Below, one piece after another: positions 10,934 to 16,140 of a stretch of 64,000 bases of DNA. Below the pieces are notes generated by a model. It worked only from the letters and a program-made list of their open reading frames with translations. It had not been told where the DNA came from and made no database searches. This stretch comes from Bacteroidota bacterium (lineage in GTDB: Bacteria > Bacteroidota > Bacteroidia > B-17B0 > Aurantibacillaceae). The stretch is taken from assembly GCA_947450025.1 (NCBI GenBank), contig CANFTW010000001.1, positions 62,001 through 126,000 on the forward strand, given 5' to 3'. Position 1 is the first letter of the stretch; every line of letters starts with the position of its first letter. A program made the translations under genes and the position numbers.

Positions 10934-11338
10934 TTAATACGCTAAATCCTCTATAAAGAAAAAGAAAACAACTGCTGCTACCCAATCTCTGCGAACCCCT
11001 TTACAATCACCTATTCTACTGCCGTTATAATAAATATCACCATCATCTTCTATCTGACCAATACGACTACCATTTTTGTAAACATCACCATCCGATTCTA
11101 TTTGCCCTACTCGACTGCCATTTTTATAAATATCTCCATCCGATTCAATTTGACCTACTCGACTGCCATTCACATAAACATCTCCATCCGATTCAATTTG
11201 ACCTTTTCGTGAACCGCCAATATACACATCCCCATCCGATTCGATTTCACCTTTCTTACTTCCTTTAATATAGAGACTTTGGGATGAAACTGATGTGTAA
11301 AAAAATCCAGCTAGTAGTATAAAAATTAGTTTTTTCAT
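10934..11338 (-). CDS. Secreted protein of tandem 16-residue repeats
   Basis: Not a family I can name. A signal peptide (about residues 1-20, cleavage after SVSSQ) is followed by five near-identical 16-residue units and one partial unit (residues 24-114) with the pattern x-N-G-S-R-x-G-Q-I-E-S-D-G-D-x-Y. The regular G and D spacing and the single hydrophobic positions suggest a short-turn beta structure, perhaps a solenoid. A hydrophobic tail rich in F and V ends the protein (residues 115-134), which could be a membrane or surface contact. It sits one base after a T9SS cargo gene and 2 bases before folA, so it is cotranscribed with unrelated genes. Function is unknown. Confidence 0.75.
   Translation of the reverse strand: MKKLIFILLAGFFYTSVSSQSLYIKGSKKGEIESDGDVYIGGSRKGQIESDGDVYVNGSRVGQIESDGDIYKNGSRVGQIESDGDVYKNGSRIGQIEDDGDIYYNGSRIGDCKGVRRDWVAAVVFFFFIEDLAY
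10997..11269 (-). repeat. Tandem 48-bp coding repeats (5.7 copies)
   Basis: In-frame tandem array of 48-bp units that encode the 16-residue repeats of the secreted protein. Full units run 11269-11222, 11221-11174, 11173-11126, 11125-11078 and 11077-11030, with a partial unit at 11029-10997. The inner units are the most alike at DNA level, the edges diverge, which is the pattern of expansion by slippage or unequal exchange. Confidence 0.85.
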
Positions 11339-11339
11339 T

Positions 11340-12245
11340 TTATTGTTTTACAAATTTTGATTGATATTGATTACCTGATTTATCTTGAATTTTAATAACA
11401 TACAAGCCATCTGCTAAAGAAGATATATTGATAGATTGTAAGCCTGATAAATTTCCTTTTAATATTATTGCTCCTAAATTATTGAAAATTGAATATTCAT
11501 TTAATTGTAACGAAGCGTTTATATTTAATTCAAAATTAGTAGGATTAGGAAATGTTTCAATAAATCGACTAGAACTTAAATCAGCTACTGAGTTTATATT
11601 ACAAGTTGAAAACCCTGTTGAGTATACAGCTGAGGGTTCAAAAGGACATCCTCCTAAATAGCCAGTAACATCAAACTTATCTTTAAATCCCACACCTTCA
11701 ATTAGTGATGTTTCAAATCCACCATTTATCAAACATCCAAAATTAAACTGTTTATAATATGAACCACATATTAAAACGCTATCAATAGAGTTCACAATCC
11801 TTCTCTGATTATTCGTAATATTCCCGAAACTAGTATAAGCAAATGTCTCTTTTAATGTGTCGCCAACATTCAAATTAAAATCATACCATAGTGTATCTTT
11901 ATTAGTTCCTGCTGTAACATCCAAATAATAAGCCTTTTTATTAATAGAATCATTTCTATAACCAAAAGCAAAAACTTTAGGACCAAAATTAAAAGGATTA
12001 TACATACTAATGGATACTGTTACCTTTTTATAAGTAAACAAACCAACTATCGTATCTCCTAGCGCTTCGTAATGTTGATAGGTTAAATAAGAACCCGTTG
12101 GAGGGGAACCAATATAATACTGACCAGACACATTCCAACTTCCATAGGTTTGAGGAAATGGTTTGTAAACATTGGTTTGAGAAAATACATTACCGCAAAC
12201 TACTAAAGCAATAATCAATAGTTTAAATGATTTAATAGTTTGCAT
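11340..12245 (-). CDS. Secreted T9SS type A cargo protein, function unknown
   Basis: Exported protein of 301 residues. The N-terminal signal peptide ends near VCGNVFSQ (residue 23). The C-terminal 75 residues form a type A sorting domain, recognisable from FPNPTNFELNIN, the middle YSIFNNLGAII and the end GLYVIKIQDKSGNQYQSKFVKQ. The central part has no family I recognise; it is rich in Y, G and T and contains several Cys (around residues 157-217). It lies between kdsA (24 bases upstream) and the repeat protein (1 base downstream). T9SS would carry it across the outer membrane. Confidence 0.82.
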   Translation of the reverse strand: MQTIKSFKLLIIALVVCGNVFSQTNVYKPFPQTYGSWNVSGQYYIGSPPTGSYLTYQHYEALGDTIVGLFTYKKVTVSISMYNPFNFGPKVFAFGYRNDSINKKAYYLDVTAGTNKDTLWYDFNLNVGDTLKETFAYTSFGNITNNQRRIVNSIDSVLICGSYYKQFNFGCLINGGFETSLIEGVGFKDKFDVTGYLGGCPFEPSAVYSTGFSTCNINSVADLSSSRFIETFPNPTNFELNINASLQLNEYSIFNNLGAIILKGNLSGLQSINISSLADGLYVIKIQDKSGNQYQSKFVKQ

Positions 12246-12269: not shown

Positions 12270-13103
12270 TTAATCTCTGTATTTCACTTCCACATTGTGA
12301 AGTTCTATAATTGGTTTCAAGAACTCTTCAAGATCAGTCACGCATAATTGAGAAGCCGCATCGCATAATGCTGTTTCAGGATTAGGATGTGTTTCAATGA
12401 ACATACCGTCAATACCTGATGCTACTCCTGCTCTAGCTAATACTGGCAAGAACTCACGAGCCCCACCTTTTTTATCGGAACTTGGAATGCCATATTTACG
12501 CACACAGTGAGTCACATCAAATACTACTGGATAACCAATATTATTCATGTGATAAAATGCACGAGGATCAACAATTAAATCATTGTAACCAAAAGAATAA
12601 CCTCTCTCCGTTAAAATCACTTGATCATTACCACTATCAATACATTTTTGTACTGGGTGTTTCATATTATCAGGTGCTAAAAACTGCCCATGTTTAATAT
12701 TAATCACGCGTCCTGTTTTTGCAGAAGCTACTAATAAAGATGACTGCATGCATAAATATGCTGGTATTTGTAATACATCACACACATCTGCCGCTGCTGC
12801 TGCTTGATCATGAGAGTGAATATCCGTTAATACAGGGAAACCAAACTGGTCCTTGATTTTACCCAACATTTCACACCCCTTAATTAAACCTGGTCCTTGG
12901 TAGTAACTTAAACTACTGCGGTTATCTTTGGTGAAAGATGATTTATAAATAATTTTAATTTTTAAACGCTCTTGAACTTCTCTCAACTTCTCAGCTGTTT
13001 TCATCATAATAGATTCTTCTTCTATTACGCAAGGCCCCGAAATCAAGAATAACTCTTTACTTCCGCACTCAATATCTCCTACTTTTACTATTTTTTTTGA
13101 CAT
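12270..13103 (-). CDS. kdsA: 3-deoxy-8-phosphooctulonate (Kdo-8-P) synthase
   Basis: Condenses arabinose 5-phosphate with phosphoenolpyruvate to form Kdo-8-phosphate for the inner core of lipopolysaccharide. The 277-residue sequence shows LISGPCVIEEES near residue 20, the substrate-binding KSSFTKDNRSS near 54, PVLTDIHS and the NIKHGQFLAP segment, and FDVTHCVRKYG. It starts 12 bases after the kdnB stop. Its position with kdnB and kdnA puts the enzyme that makes Kdo beside the two that convert it to 8-amino-Kdo. Confidence 0.96.
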   Translation of the reverse strand: MSKKIVKVGDIECGSKELFLISGPCVIEEESIMMKTAEKLREVQERLKIKIIYKSSFTKDNRSSLSYYQGPGLIKGCEMLGKIKDQFGFPVLTDIHSHDQAAAAADVCDVLQIPAYLCMQSSLLVASAKTGRVINIKHGQFLAPDNMKHPVQKCIDSGNDQVILTERGYSFGYNDLIVDPRAFYHMNNIGYPVVFDVTHCVRKYGIPSSDKKGGAREFLPVLARAGVASGIDGMFIETHPNPETALCDAASQLCVTDLEEFLKPIIELHNVEVKYRD

Positions 13104-13115
13104 GTTTTTTGTTTT

Positions 13116-14198
13116 TTATAATCTTCTAAATAAATCCTTAATATAATCCATGGTTGCAATCTCTTTATAATTATCACCAAATGCGTGATTCCACATAAAA
13201 GGTAAATTATACGATACTTGTGCCATAGCTGTAATTTGTTCTTCTGTCCAGTCTTTACTTAAGTTTTGAGGCAATACAATTTTATGCTTTTCAATCATTT
13301 GCATAAATTCACTATGGCCTTTTAAGTAAATATCTCCTAAGTGTTGAAATATTAAACAATTAGCATAACAATGACGAGTTCCTAAAACCATTGATAAACC
13401 ATAGCTCAAAGCATGACATACACCTACTTCACTATATGTTAAACTTAAACCTCCCATTAAAGAAGCTACCATTAACTTGTCATCATTTTCGGGAGTACGA
13501 CCAGCGTTTGGTCCTAAATATACTTCTCTGCAAAGTTTTAACGATTGCTCACCATAAGCTAAACTAAAAGCATTGTTTCTGATACCTGTTTCTGATTCAA
13601 TACAGTGAATGTAAGTATCCATACCTGTATAAAACCACCAATCAGTAGGAACAGAGGCAATTAATTCTGGATCTAAAATCACTTGATTAAAAACCGTCCA
13701 ATCGCATTTTAATCCTAATTTTTTTTCTGGCCCTGTTAATACTGCCGTCATTGATACTTCAGCACCTGTACCAGAAATAGTTGGAACACCTAAGTGATAA
13801 ATACCTGGTTTCTTCACCAAGTTTAATCCTTGATACAATGTTGAAGAACCTTCGTTAGTAAGCATTAATGATAAAGCTTTAGCGATATCCATAATGCTAC
13901 CTCCACCAATTCCAATCACACCACTTGGTAAACCTTGCTTTGCTAATATTTCATCACGCAATGAATCTATTTGCTCTGTCTTTGGTTCATGAGGATCAAC
14001 GTCAATATAATAAATTAAATCCTCTGGTTTGTTTTGTAATTTGTTTGATAAAGGCTTTCCTTTAAAGTAATTATCCACTACATAAACAAAGTAGTTTTTA
14101 TTTTCTTTACGAATAGGTTCAACCGTTTCTGCTAATTGAGCAAACGAACCACGACCGTAAGTGACTTTATCAATATTTTTAAAATTTTTGTGTTGCAT
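13116..14198 (-). CDS. kdnB: Kdo 8-oxidase KdnB (iron-type alcohol dehydrogenase)
   Basis: Member of the iron-containing alcohol dehydrogenase family that resembles KdnB, which oxidises the C8 hydroxyl of Kdo to the aldehyde. The nucleotide-binding GIGGGSIMDIAKAL lies near residue 96, SGTGAEVSMTAVL near 142, and metal-ligand regions are visible as GMDTYIHCIES, CHALSYGLS and GTRHCYANC. The close pairing with the KdnA-like transaminase (5-base gap) and kdsA (12-base gap) is what separates KdnB from other members of this broad family. The assignment therefore mixes sequence resemblance and context. Confidence 0.85.
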   Translation of the reverse strand: MQHKNFKNIDKVTYGRGSFAQLAETVEPIRKENKNYFVYVVDNYFKGKPLSNKLQNKPEDLIYYIDVDPHEPKTEQIDSLRDEILAKQGLPSGVIGIGGGSIMDIAKALSLMLTNEGSSTLYQGLNLVKKPGIYHLGVPTISGTGAEVSMTAVLTGPEKKLGLKCDWTVFNQVILDPELIASVPTDWWFYTGMDTYIHCIESETGIRNNAFSLAYGEQSLKLCREVYLGPNAGRTPENDDKLMVASLMGGLSLTYSEVGVCHALSYGLSMVLGTRHCYANCLIFQHLGDIYLKGHSEFMQMIEKHKIVLPQNLSKDWTEEQITAMAQVSYNLPFMWNHAFGDNYKEIATMDYIKDLFRRL

Positions 14199-14203
14199 GT
14201 TTA

Positions 14204-15412
14204 TTAAGCATTAACAGGCTTTAAAGCCTTAGTAGCACATTCAGAAATTTTAGCAGCTAAGGCTTTCAATTCTTCCTCTGTCCAAGTGCAACGTATACCA
14301 AAAGAAATTAAACGACCAACAACTGCTTGCGTTTTAGGAATATCTAAATTATGATAATCTTGTGGCGCACCTAATAATTGAATTGGTAATTTAGAAGCTG
14401 TTTTCAAGCCTTTAATATGTTCCCATTGATTAATAAAGTGATACATGTTTGTGAACCAATAGTTAAATCCAGCAACACCTGCTTTATTAAACTCATCAAC
14501 GGTGCGTTTAGCTGTTTCAGTATCAGGCATTAAAATATTTAAGAACGTTCCTGAATCACCATTATCATCCCCTAATTTAGAGAAACTAATGCCTTCTACT
14601 TTAGATAATTCTTTTTGTAAGAACGCTTTGTTTTTTAAGTTTGCTTCTCTGATAGCTGGCACTTTACGAGTTTGAGCCGCACCAACTGCTGCGTGTAATT
14701 CAGAGATACGATAGTTAAATCCTATGATTGGGTGATTTTCCATACCACGGTTATTTCCAACATGGTCATGACCATGATCACAGTAGCTATCTGCTAATTT
14801 GTATATGTTTTCATCATTTGTTACAAAAATACCGCCTTCTCCTGCTGTTGCAATTTTAAAGAAGTCGAAAGAGTATGCGCCAGCGCTACCAAATAAACCT
14901 GTTGCTGTTCCTTTGTATGAAGCTGCAAATGCTTGACCTGCATCTTCCACTAATTTTAATTTATGCTCTTTTACAACAGCCATAATTTCGTCCATGTTAG
15001 CATTACCACCGCACATATGAACTAAACATACCGCTTTGGTTTTTGGAGTAATAGCTTTTTTTATTCCTTCAGCACTTAAACATAACGTTTCATCAATTTC
15101 AGCAAATACTGGCAAAGCGCCAAGCATTAACACGGCTTCAATTGTTGCAATGTAGGTAAATGGAGGACAAATAACTTCATCTCCAGTTCCAATACCACTA
15201 GCTGCTAAAGCTGCTAAAATAGCTGCTGAACCATTAGATACAGCTAAGGCATATTTTGCACCAGTTATTTTTTTAGCTTCCGCTTCAAAGTCTTTTGCTT
15301 TCCAAATATTGTTACGTTGTGCATCATGGTTAAAACGGAACATAATTCCGGTTGATAACACATCTTCAATTTCCTTGCGCTCTTCTGCGCCAAATAATTC
15401 AGTTCCTGGCAT
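14204..15412 (-). CDS. kdnA: 8-amino-Kdo transaminase KdnA (DegT/DnrJ family)
   Basis: PLP-dependent sugar aminotransferase that, with KdnB, turns Kdo into 8-amino-3,8-dideoxy-octulosonate (Kdo8N). The start MPGTELFGAEERKEIEDVL with FRFNHDAQRNNIWK soon after follows the pattern I know for KdnA. The fold-type I core shows VSNGSAA near residue 59, EDAGQAF near 157 and the PLP lysine K186 in DFFKIATAGEGG. The length of 402 residues fits. It is followed 5 bases later by kdnB and preceded by an unknown gene 31 bases away. Confidence 0.87.
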   Translation of the reverse strand: MPGTELFGAEERKEIEDVLSTGIMFRFNHDAQRNNIWKAKDFEAEAKKITGAKYALAVSNGSAAILAALAASGIGTGDEVICPPFTYIATIEAVLMLGALPVFAEIDETLCLSAEGIKKAITPKTKAVCLVHMCGGNANMDEIMAVVKEHKLKLVEDAGQAFAASYKGTATGLFGSAGAYSFDFFKIATAGEGGIFVTNDENIYKLADSYCDHGHDHVGNNRGMENHPIIGFNYRISELHAAVGAAQTRKVPAIREANLKNKAFLQKELSKVEGISFSKLGDDNGDSGTFLNILMPDTETAKRTVDEFNKAGVAGFNYWFTNMYHFINQWEHIKGLKTASKLPIQLLGAPQDYHNLDIPKTQAVVGRLISFGIRCTWTEEELKALAAKISECATKALKPVNA

Positions 15413-15443: not shown

Positions 15444-15905
15444 TTAATTAGGTAAAAATTCAAAATTATTAAGTTCATCAATTACACCAAAGTTCACCGA
15501 CGACATTTTTCCATTTTCAAAATAACAATCTAAGCCTGCTTCATCAAAGCTTAAACGCTTCTCTCCCCAATCTTGTTTTTCGGTATCTGTAATAGTGAAG
15601 TTATGTTCTTTCATCAAGTCAATTAATTGTTGCTCACTCAAGGAAAATATCTTTTTAGAAAACAACAGTGTATCTTTATTATCAACCTCTACACTGCCAA
15701 ATTTCATTGAATTTTTATTATCAAAAAACAATGAAAATCCAGATTCCCAATAATGGTAAACCGTGCATGAAGTTTCTAAAATCGTATCATCCAATACTTG
15801 TATTTCTTCTGGTTTTCCAAAAACTAATTCAGCATCAACTGCAGTAACACCAAAGTTTAATGTACAAAATCCCTTTAATAAATTTATTTGAGGCGTGAAG
15901 TTCAT
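15444..15905 (-). CDS. Conserved-looking hypothetical protein
   Basis: I do not recognise this 153-residue protein. It has no signal peptide or membrane segment and is acidic overall. It contains FGKPEEIQVLDDTILE, then a stretch with Y-x-Y-W-E-S-G-F-S-L-F-F-D and a Trp-containing motif DWGEKRLSFDEAGLDCYFENG that suggest repeated beta strands. It is the first gene of the minus-strand run that continues into kdnA with a 31-base gap, so it is likely cotranscribed with the Kdo8N genes. A role in that pathway is only an inference from position. Confidence 0.7.
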   Translation of the reverse strand: MNFTPQINLLKGFCTLNFGVTAVDAELVFGKPEEIQVLDDTILETSCTVYHYWESGFSLFFDNKNSMKFGSVEVDNKDTLLFSKKIFSLSEQQLIDLMKEHNFTITDTEKQDWGEKRLSFDEAGLDCYFENGKMSSVNFGVIDELNNFEFLPN

Positions 15906-16045: not shown

Positions 16046-16118
16046 GATTCTGTAGCTCAGTTGGTAGAGCAATACACTTTTAATGTATGGGCCCTGGGTT
16101 CGAGTCCCAGCAGGATCA
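16046..16118 (+). tRNA. tRNA-Lys (anticodon UUU)
   Basis: Cloverleaf of 73 bases. The acceptor stem pairs GATTCTG with CAGGATC (one G-T pair), the D stem pairs GCTC with GAGC, the anticodon stem ATACA/TGTAT encloses the loop CTTTTAA with anticodon TTT, and the T arm is CTGGG-TTCGAGT-CCCAG. The discriminator base is A at 16118. A canonical promoter precedes it and a strong terminator follows, so it is a single-gene unit. Confidence 0.97.
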
Positions 16119-16140
16119 CAAGAATAGTAACTAATTCGGT

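Follow-up and report, generated by a model that had tools for sequence, protein, structure and literature searches.

A predicted 8-amino-Kdo pathway in Bacteroidota, with accompanying differences at KdsB and KdsD

Three adjoining genes of a Bacteroidota genome, kdsA, kdnB and kdnA, are predicted to form the committed part of a pathway to 8-amino-Kdo (Kdo8N), a reading to which we assign a probability of about 0.82. Kdo is the sugar of the outer membrane's inner core, and its amino-substituted form is known as a trait of Shewanella. Sequence comparison establishes the kinship of KdsA, KdnB and KdnA, the co-occurrence of KdnA and KdnB, the gene-order and fusion links with kdsB and kdsA, and a set of residues in the CMP-sugar synthetase KdsB.

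The three genes and their products

The window, a 64,000-nucleotide stretch of contig CANFTW010000001.1, contains the following features.

12270-13103, minus strand: kdsA, Kdo-8-phosphate synthase, 277 aa; passes the NCBIfam cut-offs and matches solved KDO8P synthases
13116-14198, minus strand: kdnB, predicted metal-dependent Kdo 8-oxidase, 360 aa; matches 5k8c, ligands D194, H198, H262 and H276
14204-15412, minus strand: kdnA, predicted PLP-dependent 8-amino-Kdo transaminase, 402 aa; matches 5k8b, Shewanella clade, PLP lysine K186
15444-15905, minus strand: family-restricted protein, 153 aa; 31 bases before kdnA and conserved beside it
16046-16119, plus strand: tRNA-Lys (TTT), found by ARAGORN; upstream boundary of the run, outside the pathway

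The open reading frames, all on the minus strand, bear out the tight run described in the first-pass annotation, with gaps of 12 bases between kdsA and kdnB and 5 bases between kdnB and kdnA. A promoter and terminator scan returns sites that are about as numerous in shuffled sequences. KdsA scores 349.4 bits against NCBIfam NF003543 (cut-off 242) and 330.3 bits against TIGR01362 (cut-off 314).

Pfam and NCBIfam classify KdnA and KdnB no finer than the level of DegT aminotransferase and iron-type alcohol dehydrogenase. Among solved structures, KdnA best matches 5k8b (411.5 bits; runner-up, 157.1 bits). KdnB best matches 5k8c (394.9 bits), followed by 3rf7 (392.3 bits), which is deposited merely as an 'iron-containing alcohol dehydrogenase', and then by a match of 85.6 bits. 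5k8b and 5k8c are KdnA and KdnB of Shewanella oneidensis. The likeness to these enzymes covers nearly the full length of the sequences, the PLP lysine and the metal ligands, and identities to two Shewanella are 47% and 51% for KdnA and 52% and 48% for KdnB. The solved Shewanella enzymes belong to group I, whereas those of the window, about half identical to them, belong to group II, in which we know of no tested enzyme.

Window KdnA and Shewanella KdnA share a clade of 90 rows (FastTree support 100). Outside this clade lie E. coli ArnB and WecE and a further 12 DegT proteins, with a sister group made up of four of the latter. The earlier KdnA-like label is therefore upheld, as the tree does not put the protein among other sugar aminotransferases. 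The KdnB tree is less discriminating. In it, 119 KdnB-type rows, Shewanella among them and four pairs of identical rows counted twice, stand apart from FucO and EutG (support 100). However, the set also takes in KdnB-like proteins of divergent sequence from family f19 and from genome G118 (L090, at 35%, is outside this tree). The phylogeny thus sets KdnB apart from these alcohol dehydrogenases and does not separate it from the f19 and G118 proteins, so the case for KdnB rests on its distance in score from other families and on the metal ligands. Both trees omit KdnA and KdnB rows shorter than 250 aa, which removes 2 of the 103 chosen loci and 2 of 120.

Comparison at the active-site level agrees with both assignments. 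The PLP lysine K186 aligns with ArnB and is present in every one of the 89 KdnA rows fetched; the metal ligands Asp-His-His-His (D194, H198, H262 and H276) align with E. coli FucO and are present in 115 of 115 KdnB rows. The f19 KdnB-like proteins also keep the metal ligands, and the KdnA and KdsB correlates are absent. Those of G145, G169 and G311 were considered as Kdo8N enzymes and rejected, since their KdnA-like matches (215-222 bits) fall in a separate group, which is also present in f19 genomes without KdnB. Of the f19 KdsB copies, three can be read at column 233, and these carry G or A.

The gene before kdnA (15444-15905), suspected earlier of belonging to the pathway, is a real open reading frame. 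A homologue adjoins kdnA at seven loci (L091, L092, L093, L097, L209, L210 and L234), and the gene may be co-transcribed with kdnA. It was seen in no genomes other than those of the window's family and the named relatives nearest to it, and we reject it as a general pathway gene. The protein matches no family above cut-off (DUF7738, 20.0 bits against 24.6), and a fold search with its structure model (mean pLDDT 75) gives no match at an E value of 0.001 or better.

In the proposed pathway, KdsA would make Kdo 8-phosphate, from which a KdsC-type phosphatase would release Kdo. KdnB would then oxidize C8 of Kdo to the aldehyde, and KdnA would transaminate this aldehyde to give Kdo8N. The sole KdsB (C2:154740-155483) would convert Kdo8N to its CMP sugar, and WaaA (contig C20) would transfer Kdo8N onto lipid A. 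Besides KdnA and KdnB, the genome has KdsA, a CMP-sugar synthetase, a KdsC that exceeds its cut-off and a single WaaA. These reactions, the Kdo8N product and any effect on outer-membrane strength are predicted from sequence.

Occurrence, gene linkage and the CMP-sugar synthetase

KdnA matches of at least 349 bits and KdnB matches of at least 361 bits occur in the same 26 of 395 genomes of the phylum (about 7%). The two genes are unlinked in 16 of the 26. Many Flavobacteriaceae have KdnB with no adjoining kdnA; assignment of these to another pathway was rejected, since a genome-wide search finds KdnA elsewhere in all 16 unlinked genomes. All 19 other genomes of the genus have KdnB, as do 14 of the 17 others of the family. 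A KdnB search fetched 80 named loci; of these, 50 have kdnA on the same strand within 5 kb, 18 have kdsA within 100 bases, and 30 have kdsB within 5 kb. The neighbours of kdnA and kdnB in relatives are kdsA, kdsB and sometimes waaA, and one genome (L075) encodes a KdsB-KdnB fusion protein. The kdn genes neighbour kdsB in the two fetched Shewanella loci (L253 and L261), whereas they lie beside kdsA in the window.

The first-pass annotation had called for a search for a CMP-Kdo8N synthetase elsewhere in the genome. The genome has one KdsB, a full-length family member (TIGR00466, 217 bits; cut-off 155) encoded on another contig and unlinked to kdnAB. It keeps R157, H181, E210 and D235 of E. coli KdsB, but has C233 and E141 in place of G233 and A141; Shewanella KdsB has E233 and H141. 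An acidic residue at position 141 or 233 (E. coli numbering) is present in 64 of 65 KdnAB-positive rows and 2 of 116 negative rows, for columns picked from the same data as counted, with one identical pair counted twice (L073 and L262, apparently from one genome), with the f19 rows L086-L088 (unaligned at column 233) and rows L199, L201 and L203 excluded, and with 14 held-out rows chosen by KdnB and one discovery row without confirmed KdnA (L244) among the positives. The exceptions are G434 and G237, acidic without KdnAB, and G385, which has KdnAB and no acidic residue. A strict independent-pairs test of the residues against KdnAB has only 4 usable pairs and is not significant. That these KdsB residues follow KdnAB is a new observation. 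As to the three-dimensional place of positions 141 and 233, the available portions of two papers (PMC3149649 and PMC7717453) name neither. The candidate CMP-Kdo8N synthetase is this sole KdsB with its KdnAB-typical residues, from which a preference for Kdo8N is predicted.

Two other readings of the cluster have to be weighed. The substrate of KdnA and KdnB could be an acidic sugar other than inner-core Kdo, such as a nonulosonic acid of O-antigen or capsule. DegT aminotransferases and iron-type alcohol dehydrogenases serve many substrates, and the family databases assign the two proteins at that level only; the f19 proteins, lacking the correlates, make other roles for KdnB-like proteins possible. 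However, the linkage to kdsA, kdsB and waaA, the KdsB-KdnB fusion and the KdsB residues that follow KdnAB all argue for Kdo, and we regard another substrate as very unlikely. Slightly less improbable, though still unlikely, is an active pathway whose product is minor or conditional, with ordinary Kdo on most lipid A because KdsB still prefers Kdo. A single KdsB per genome serves whatever sugar is made, that of the window has C233 and E141 rather than the E233 of Shewanella, and its gene lies apart from kdnAB, all of which fit a minor product; the difference of the window-clade KdsB from that of KdnAB-negative genomes at columns 141 and 233 speaks against it.

An aldolase-CBS chimera in the place of KdsD

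The operon gene resembling KdsD encodes a transaldolase/fructose-6-phosphate-aldolase domain joined to CBS domains of the KdsD type (TAL/CBS). It resembles KdsD in its CBS pair (TIGR00393 positions 151-267; isomerase CBS structure 4o9k) and in its place in the Kdo gene set, but has the aldolase domain instead of the SIS isomerase domain. Its score against TIGR00393 (KpsF/GutQ), 59.4 bits from positions 151-267 only, is below the cut-off of 203.7. TAL/CBS shares with FsaA and TalC the Schiff-base lysine (K85) and R134, which are kept by all 29 aligned rows, one identical pair (own genome and L425) among them; in the same 29 rows, Q59, T109 and Y131 of FsaA are E, H and L, and the CBS pair is an addition. 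In 69 chosen genomes, 49 have KdsD only, 13 the chimera only, 1 both and 6 neither. TAL/CBS largely replaces KdsD. The 25-30% 'KdsD' frames in clusters were rejected as isomerases, as the CBS part alone matches KdsD where examined. The CBS frame of G444 was likewise rejected as a TAL/CBS protein, having no match, and G444 is therefore counted as 'neither'.

TAL/CBS may make arabinose 5-phosphate. According to the available text of two papers (PMC6298115 and PMC9947464), FsaA and FsaB form this compound from glycolaldehyde and glyceraldehyde 3-phosphate. We tentatively propose, at somewhat less than even odds, a natural arabinose-5-phosphate aldolase, in which a chimera joining an FSA/TalC-type aldolase to CBS domains of the KdsD type would replace KdsD in most of the window's Bacteroidota branch. 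The pathway would start with an aldol reaction, probably of glycolaldehyde and glyceraldehyde 3-phosphate, would be under end-product control through the CBS domains, and would end in Kdo8N, with the acidic residue of KdsB holding the C8 ammonium group.

The chance is nearly even that TAL/CBS is instead an ordinary transaldolase or a regulator and that a diverged isomerase supplies arabinose 5-phosphate. Consistent with this, the aldolase domain scores 163.5 bits against TIGR00875 (fsa_talC_mipB), below the cut-off of 245.95, its best solved relatives are named transaldolases, and the three FsaA positions are changed. The six genomes with neither TAL/CBS nor a KdsD above its cut-off indicate that other supply routes exist or were missed. 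Against it, the TAL/CBS gene is flanked by kdsA and a kdsC-like gene, an arrangement shared by two KdnAB-negative genomes (L414 and L418), the nearest match to its CBS part is the CBS part of KdsD, and TAL/CBS and KdsD are nearly mutually exclusive. The window genome has five SIS matches from four frames, which we read as GlmS, MurQ, a phosphoglucose isomerase and GmhA, none as KdsD.

Implications

In the available text of a 2019 paper (PMC6357163), Kdo8N is termed a Shewanella hallmark. If the prediction is true, about 7% of the phylum-wide Bacteroidota sample can make Kdo8N. Some Desulfobacula and Cloacimonadota genomes could do so too, with KdnA, KdnB and an E233 KdsB together in L252, L271 and L277. 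Both kdn genes also occur in fetched loci of two cultured genera, Runella (group II, with R. defluvii and R. aurantiaca as cultured species) and Chitinophaga (group I), so the prediction is directly checkable.

Related genomes suggest that two further steps of the Kdo sugar pathway are also changed, at KdsB and by replacement of KdsD, which is new here. With residues 141 and 233, the CMP-sugar preference of KdsB becomes a question for point mutation, and the residues can mark genomes. In the aldolase-CBS chimera there would be a second route to an inner-core sugar precursor, and a natural form of a reaction known from synthetic pathways, as described in the available text of PMC6298115 and PMC9947464.

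The kdnA-kdnB-kdsA run and its proteins

The window carries three closely spaced genes, transcribed in the order kdnA, kdnB, kdsA. In Shewanella, KdnB (Kdo 8-oxidase) and KdnA (transaminase) together convert Kdo to Kdo8N (8-amino-Kdo). The first-pass annotation had named the genes as such, and the identification is borne out by the open reading frames, which are in place and spaced 5 and 12 bases apart, and by structure matches, trees and catalytic residues.

Features of the run and its surroundings
11340-12245: protein with a type IX secretion sorting domain, downstream, 24 bases past kdsA
12270-13103, minus strand: kdsA, third in transcription order, 12 bases after kdnB
13116-14198, minus strand: kdnB, second, 5 bases after kdnA
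14204-15412, minus strand: kdnA, first of the three
15444-15905: 153-aa ORF, its end 31 bases ahead of kdnA
16046-16119, plus strand: tRNA-Lys gene, upstream of the run

The sorting-domain protein has no match at E<=1e-8 across the loci of 40 relatives. The 15444-15905 protein is kept only within the window's family and resembles DUF7738 weakly; a fold search gave no match. A 134-aa protein with short repeats around GSRxGQIESDGDxY is encoded at 10934-11338.

Residues 1-384 of the window KdnA match S. oneidensis KdnA (5k8b) with 411.5 bits, the second-best solved structure scoring 157.1. The window KdnB matches 5k8c with 394.9 bits and 3rf7, deposited without the KdnB name, with 392.3, followed by 85.6. 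In NCBIfam, KdsA exceeds two cut-offs, and KdnA and KdnB are each without any over-cut-off match. The PLP lysine K186 is present in 89/89 fetched KdnA rows and the metal ligands D194, H198, H262 and H276 in 115/115 KdnB rows, counts that include a few identical rows.

In a FastTree tree of 104 rows, the window KdnA and Shewanella share a 90-row clade (support 100) that excludes E. coli ArnB, WecE and 12 other DegT proteins. For KdnB the phylogeny agrees in part: a very long branch with support 100 separates 119 of 121 rows from FucO/EutG, but proteins of family f19 adjoin the window's group of 61 rows (support 80). That group has support 94 and leaves Shewanella outside, and the deepest forks are weak (supports 55 and 89). 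Both trees contain a group I, with Shewanella, Desulfobacterota-type genomes, Flavobacteriaceae and Chitinophaga, and a group II, with the window and relatives from several Bacteroidota lineages. The prediction of an amino-modified Kdo holds up, and a Kdo8N pathway is the best explanation, to which we give a probability of roughly 0.8. Mutants in kdn are more sensitive to polymyxin.

Distribution and gene context

Among 395 genomes of the phylum, KdnB is found in 31 at E<=1e-30 and in 26 when cut at the score gap (at least 361 bits; next 293). KdnA is found in 106 at E<=1e-55 and in 26 at its gap (at least 349 bits; next 236), the 80 weaker matches coming from f19 and from a single f20 genome. 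Both cuts pick out the same 26 genomes, and by their coordinates kdnA and kdnB are unlinked in 16 of these, either on separate contigs or at a distance above 20 kb. Three KdnB-like proteins of f19 (L086/L087/L088, from G169/G311/G145) are 39-41% identical and keep the metal ligands; true KdnA is absent. KdnB is present in 19/19 other genomes of the window's genus, in 14/17 others of its family (the three without it are 78-85% complete) and in 2/23 further relatives.

One scan, a sample of at least 80 KdnB loci in named genomes and no census, lists Runella, Zobellia, Maribacter, Kordia, Winogradskyella, Chitinophaga, Shewanella, Desulfobacula and one Cloacimonadota genome, among others. Among the 80 named loci listed, 50 have kdnA on the strand of kdnB and no more than 5 kb from it; kdsB (30), kdsA (21) and waaA (7) are further such neighbours. 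Five loci (L223, L224, L228, L231, L233) hold waaA, kdnA, kdnB, kdsA, a gene termed TAL/CBS and kdsB on one strand, with a kdsC-like gene also called in L223, L224 and L231. In L231 waaA is 61 bases ahead of kdnA; in L223 the gap is about 0.9 kb with an opposite-strand 173-aa ORF between, so that the set need not be a single transcript. In genome G367 one 612-aa open frame (L075:6995-8833) fuses KdsB and KdnB.

In the window genome the Kdo gene set is split, with the genes beyond kdnA-kdnB-kdsA on other contigs. The search for a CMP-Kdo8N synthetase elsewhere in the genome, suggested by the first reading, found one KdsB, on contig C2.

Other Kdo genes of the window genome
C3:162019-163083 (= L292:1477-2541): TAL/CBS gene
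C3:161128-161835: kdsC-like gene
Contig C6: KdsC, over cut-off
Contig C20: WaaA, one copy

KdsB residues that track KdnAB

KdsB activates the sugar with CMP, and the S. oneidensis enzyme prefers Kdo8N. We aligned 51 KdsB rows from KdnAB-positive genomes (KdnA seen in genome or locus for all except L244) with those of 54 KdnB-negative genomes and looked for the columns that diverge most. E. coli G233 ranks first and A141 second. G233 lies two residues ahead of D235, which our alignment pairs with D219, the Mg ligand in the enzyme of PMC3149649. Group I has E233 in 29/29; the window clade has C233 in 17/19 and E141 in 18/19; in three more group II rows residue 233 is C, A and P, and all three carry E141. 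In the KdnB-negative rows residue 233 is G, A, S or P without exception (54/54). In held-out sequences E233 occurs in 14/14 positives, and E or C in 1/60 negatives (G237). These positives, picked by KdnB, are all Flavobacteriaceae-type group I (one, L262, shares its KdsB with a discovery row); the window's own C233/E141 signature therefore lies outside the held-out set.

Pooled, 64/65 positives versus 2/116 negatives carry an acidic residue at one or other of columns 141 and 233, the negatives including E. coli and G118; the exceptions are the positive G385 and the negatives G434 and G237. E at residue 180, near which PMC7717453 places a substrate-binding R/K-H-x-G motif, occurs in 14/65 positives and 0/116 negatives. 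Dependent versus independent likelihood models on a FastTree KdsB tree (column 233 masked, 141 unmasked) give an LRT of 80.6 when the acid rule is tested and of 65.4 with 'E or C at 233' instead. Both figures overstate the case, since the data that served to choose the columns also served to test them, FastTree built the tree and the strict independent-pairs test (4 pairs) is not significant.

Two negative genomes may record loss. G434 groups kdsA, TAL/CBS, a kdsC-like gene and kdsB (L414) with KdnAB absent, and the E141 of its KdsB may mark recent KdnAB loss. In G118 a search for KdnA at E<=1e-40 finds nothing. Its KdnB-like protein (L085:6995-8074) has Q and R at positions 198 and 262, so that two of four ligands are gone; the adjoining KdsB has G233, yet is placed among E233 Flavobacteriaceae beside Kordia. 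Natural decay of the pathway is a possible reading of this single case. However, in the KdnB tree the KdnB-like protein of G118 falls outside the remaining KdnB rows; its branch is long and the support weak, and it may therefore be an old paralogue.

A TAL/CBS protein in the place of KdsD

One cluster gene carries the BLAST label KdsD (arabinose-5-phosphate isomerase). We reject the isomerase identity: in all four relatives scanned (L223, L064, L272, L287) Pfam finds TAL_FSA and CBS.

TAL/CBS genes in Kdo clusters (TAL_FSA aldolase plus KdsD-type CBS, in KdsD's place)
L223:9998-11011
L064:12150-13172

In the window genome's protein, the first part matches single-domain transaldolases (3r8r, 137 bits) and the last part isomerase CBS domains (4o9k, 50 bits), the tail corresponding to KpsF/GutQ positions 151-267 in NCBIfam. 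The CBS domains of KdsD bind CMP-Kdo. The window genome has no over-cut-off KdsD; its SIS matches, two domains in one 618-aa frame and three weak ones, we read as GlmS, MurQ, a phosphoglucose isomerase and GmhA.

We scored 69 chosen genomes, 33 of them KdnAB-positive and 36 negative. KdsD exceeds its cut-off in 50, and TAL/CBS was verified on DNA in 14: 49 have KdsD only, 13 TAL/CBS only, one both (G419) and six neither (G432, G437, G439, G443, G444 and G347, the last with a 222-aa frame whose match is confined to the isomerase part). The detection limit for TAL/CBS was 1e-11, and weaker genes would escape. The near-exclusion has a Fisher P of 8.8e-9, uncorrected for kinship. KdsD occurs in 20/20 group I and 2/13 group II genomes (G249, G419); in group II TAL/CBS is missing from G249 alone, whose kdn cluster (L061) has no such gene. 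As the KdnAB-negative G434 and G292 group kdsA, TAL/CBS and a kdsC-like gene, the swap concerns Kdo generally.

According to PMC6298115, E. coli FsaA/FsaB make arabinose 5-phosphate by joining the donor glycolaldehyde to the acceptor glyceraldehyde 3-phosphate, and PMC9947464 puts FsaA to the same use in vivo. Like FsaA, all 29 aligned TAL/CBS rows have K85 and R134; unlike FsaA, all 29 have E, H and L for Q59, T109 and Y131, and donor or mechanism may therefore differ. That TAL/CBS is a natural arabinose-5-phosphate aldolase is a tentative reading, to which we give somewhat less than even odds.

Among the open-licence papers searched we found none joining transaldolase with KdsD and kdsA. Nor did the accessible open-licence texts yield a case of Kdo8N in Bacteroidota, which is weak evidence of novelty as subscription journals lay outside the search. 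PMC6357163, PMC4052302 and PMC3210612 give Kdo8N for Shewanella; PMC3210612 sets the genus apart from other structures then known, and PMC4052302 mentions 'other bacterial species', with Shewanella work among the works cited. PMC8510873 reports a kdnB-annotated gene, by annotation only, in one Leptospira interrogans isolate. Kdo8N synthesis was already known; judged from sequence, the novelty would lie in group II as a branch, in a KdsB that has changed to match and in a precursor step with TAL/CBS.
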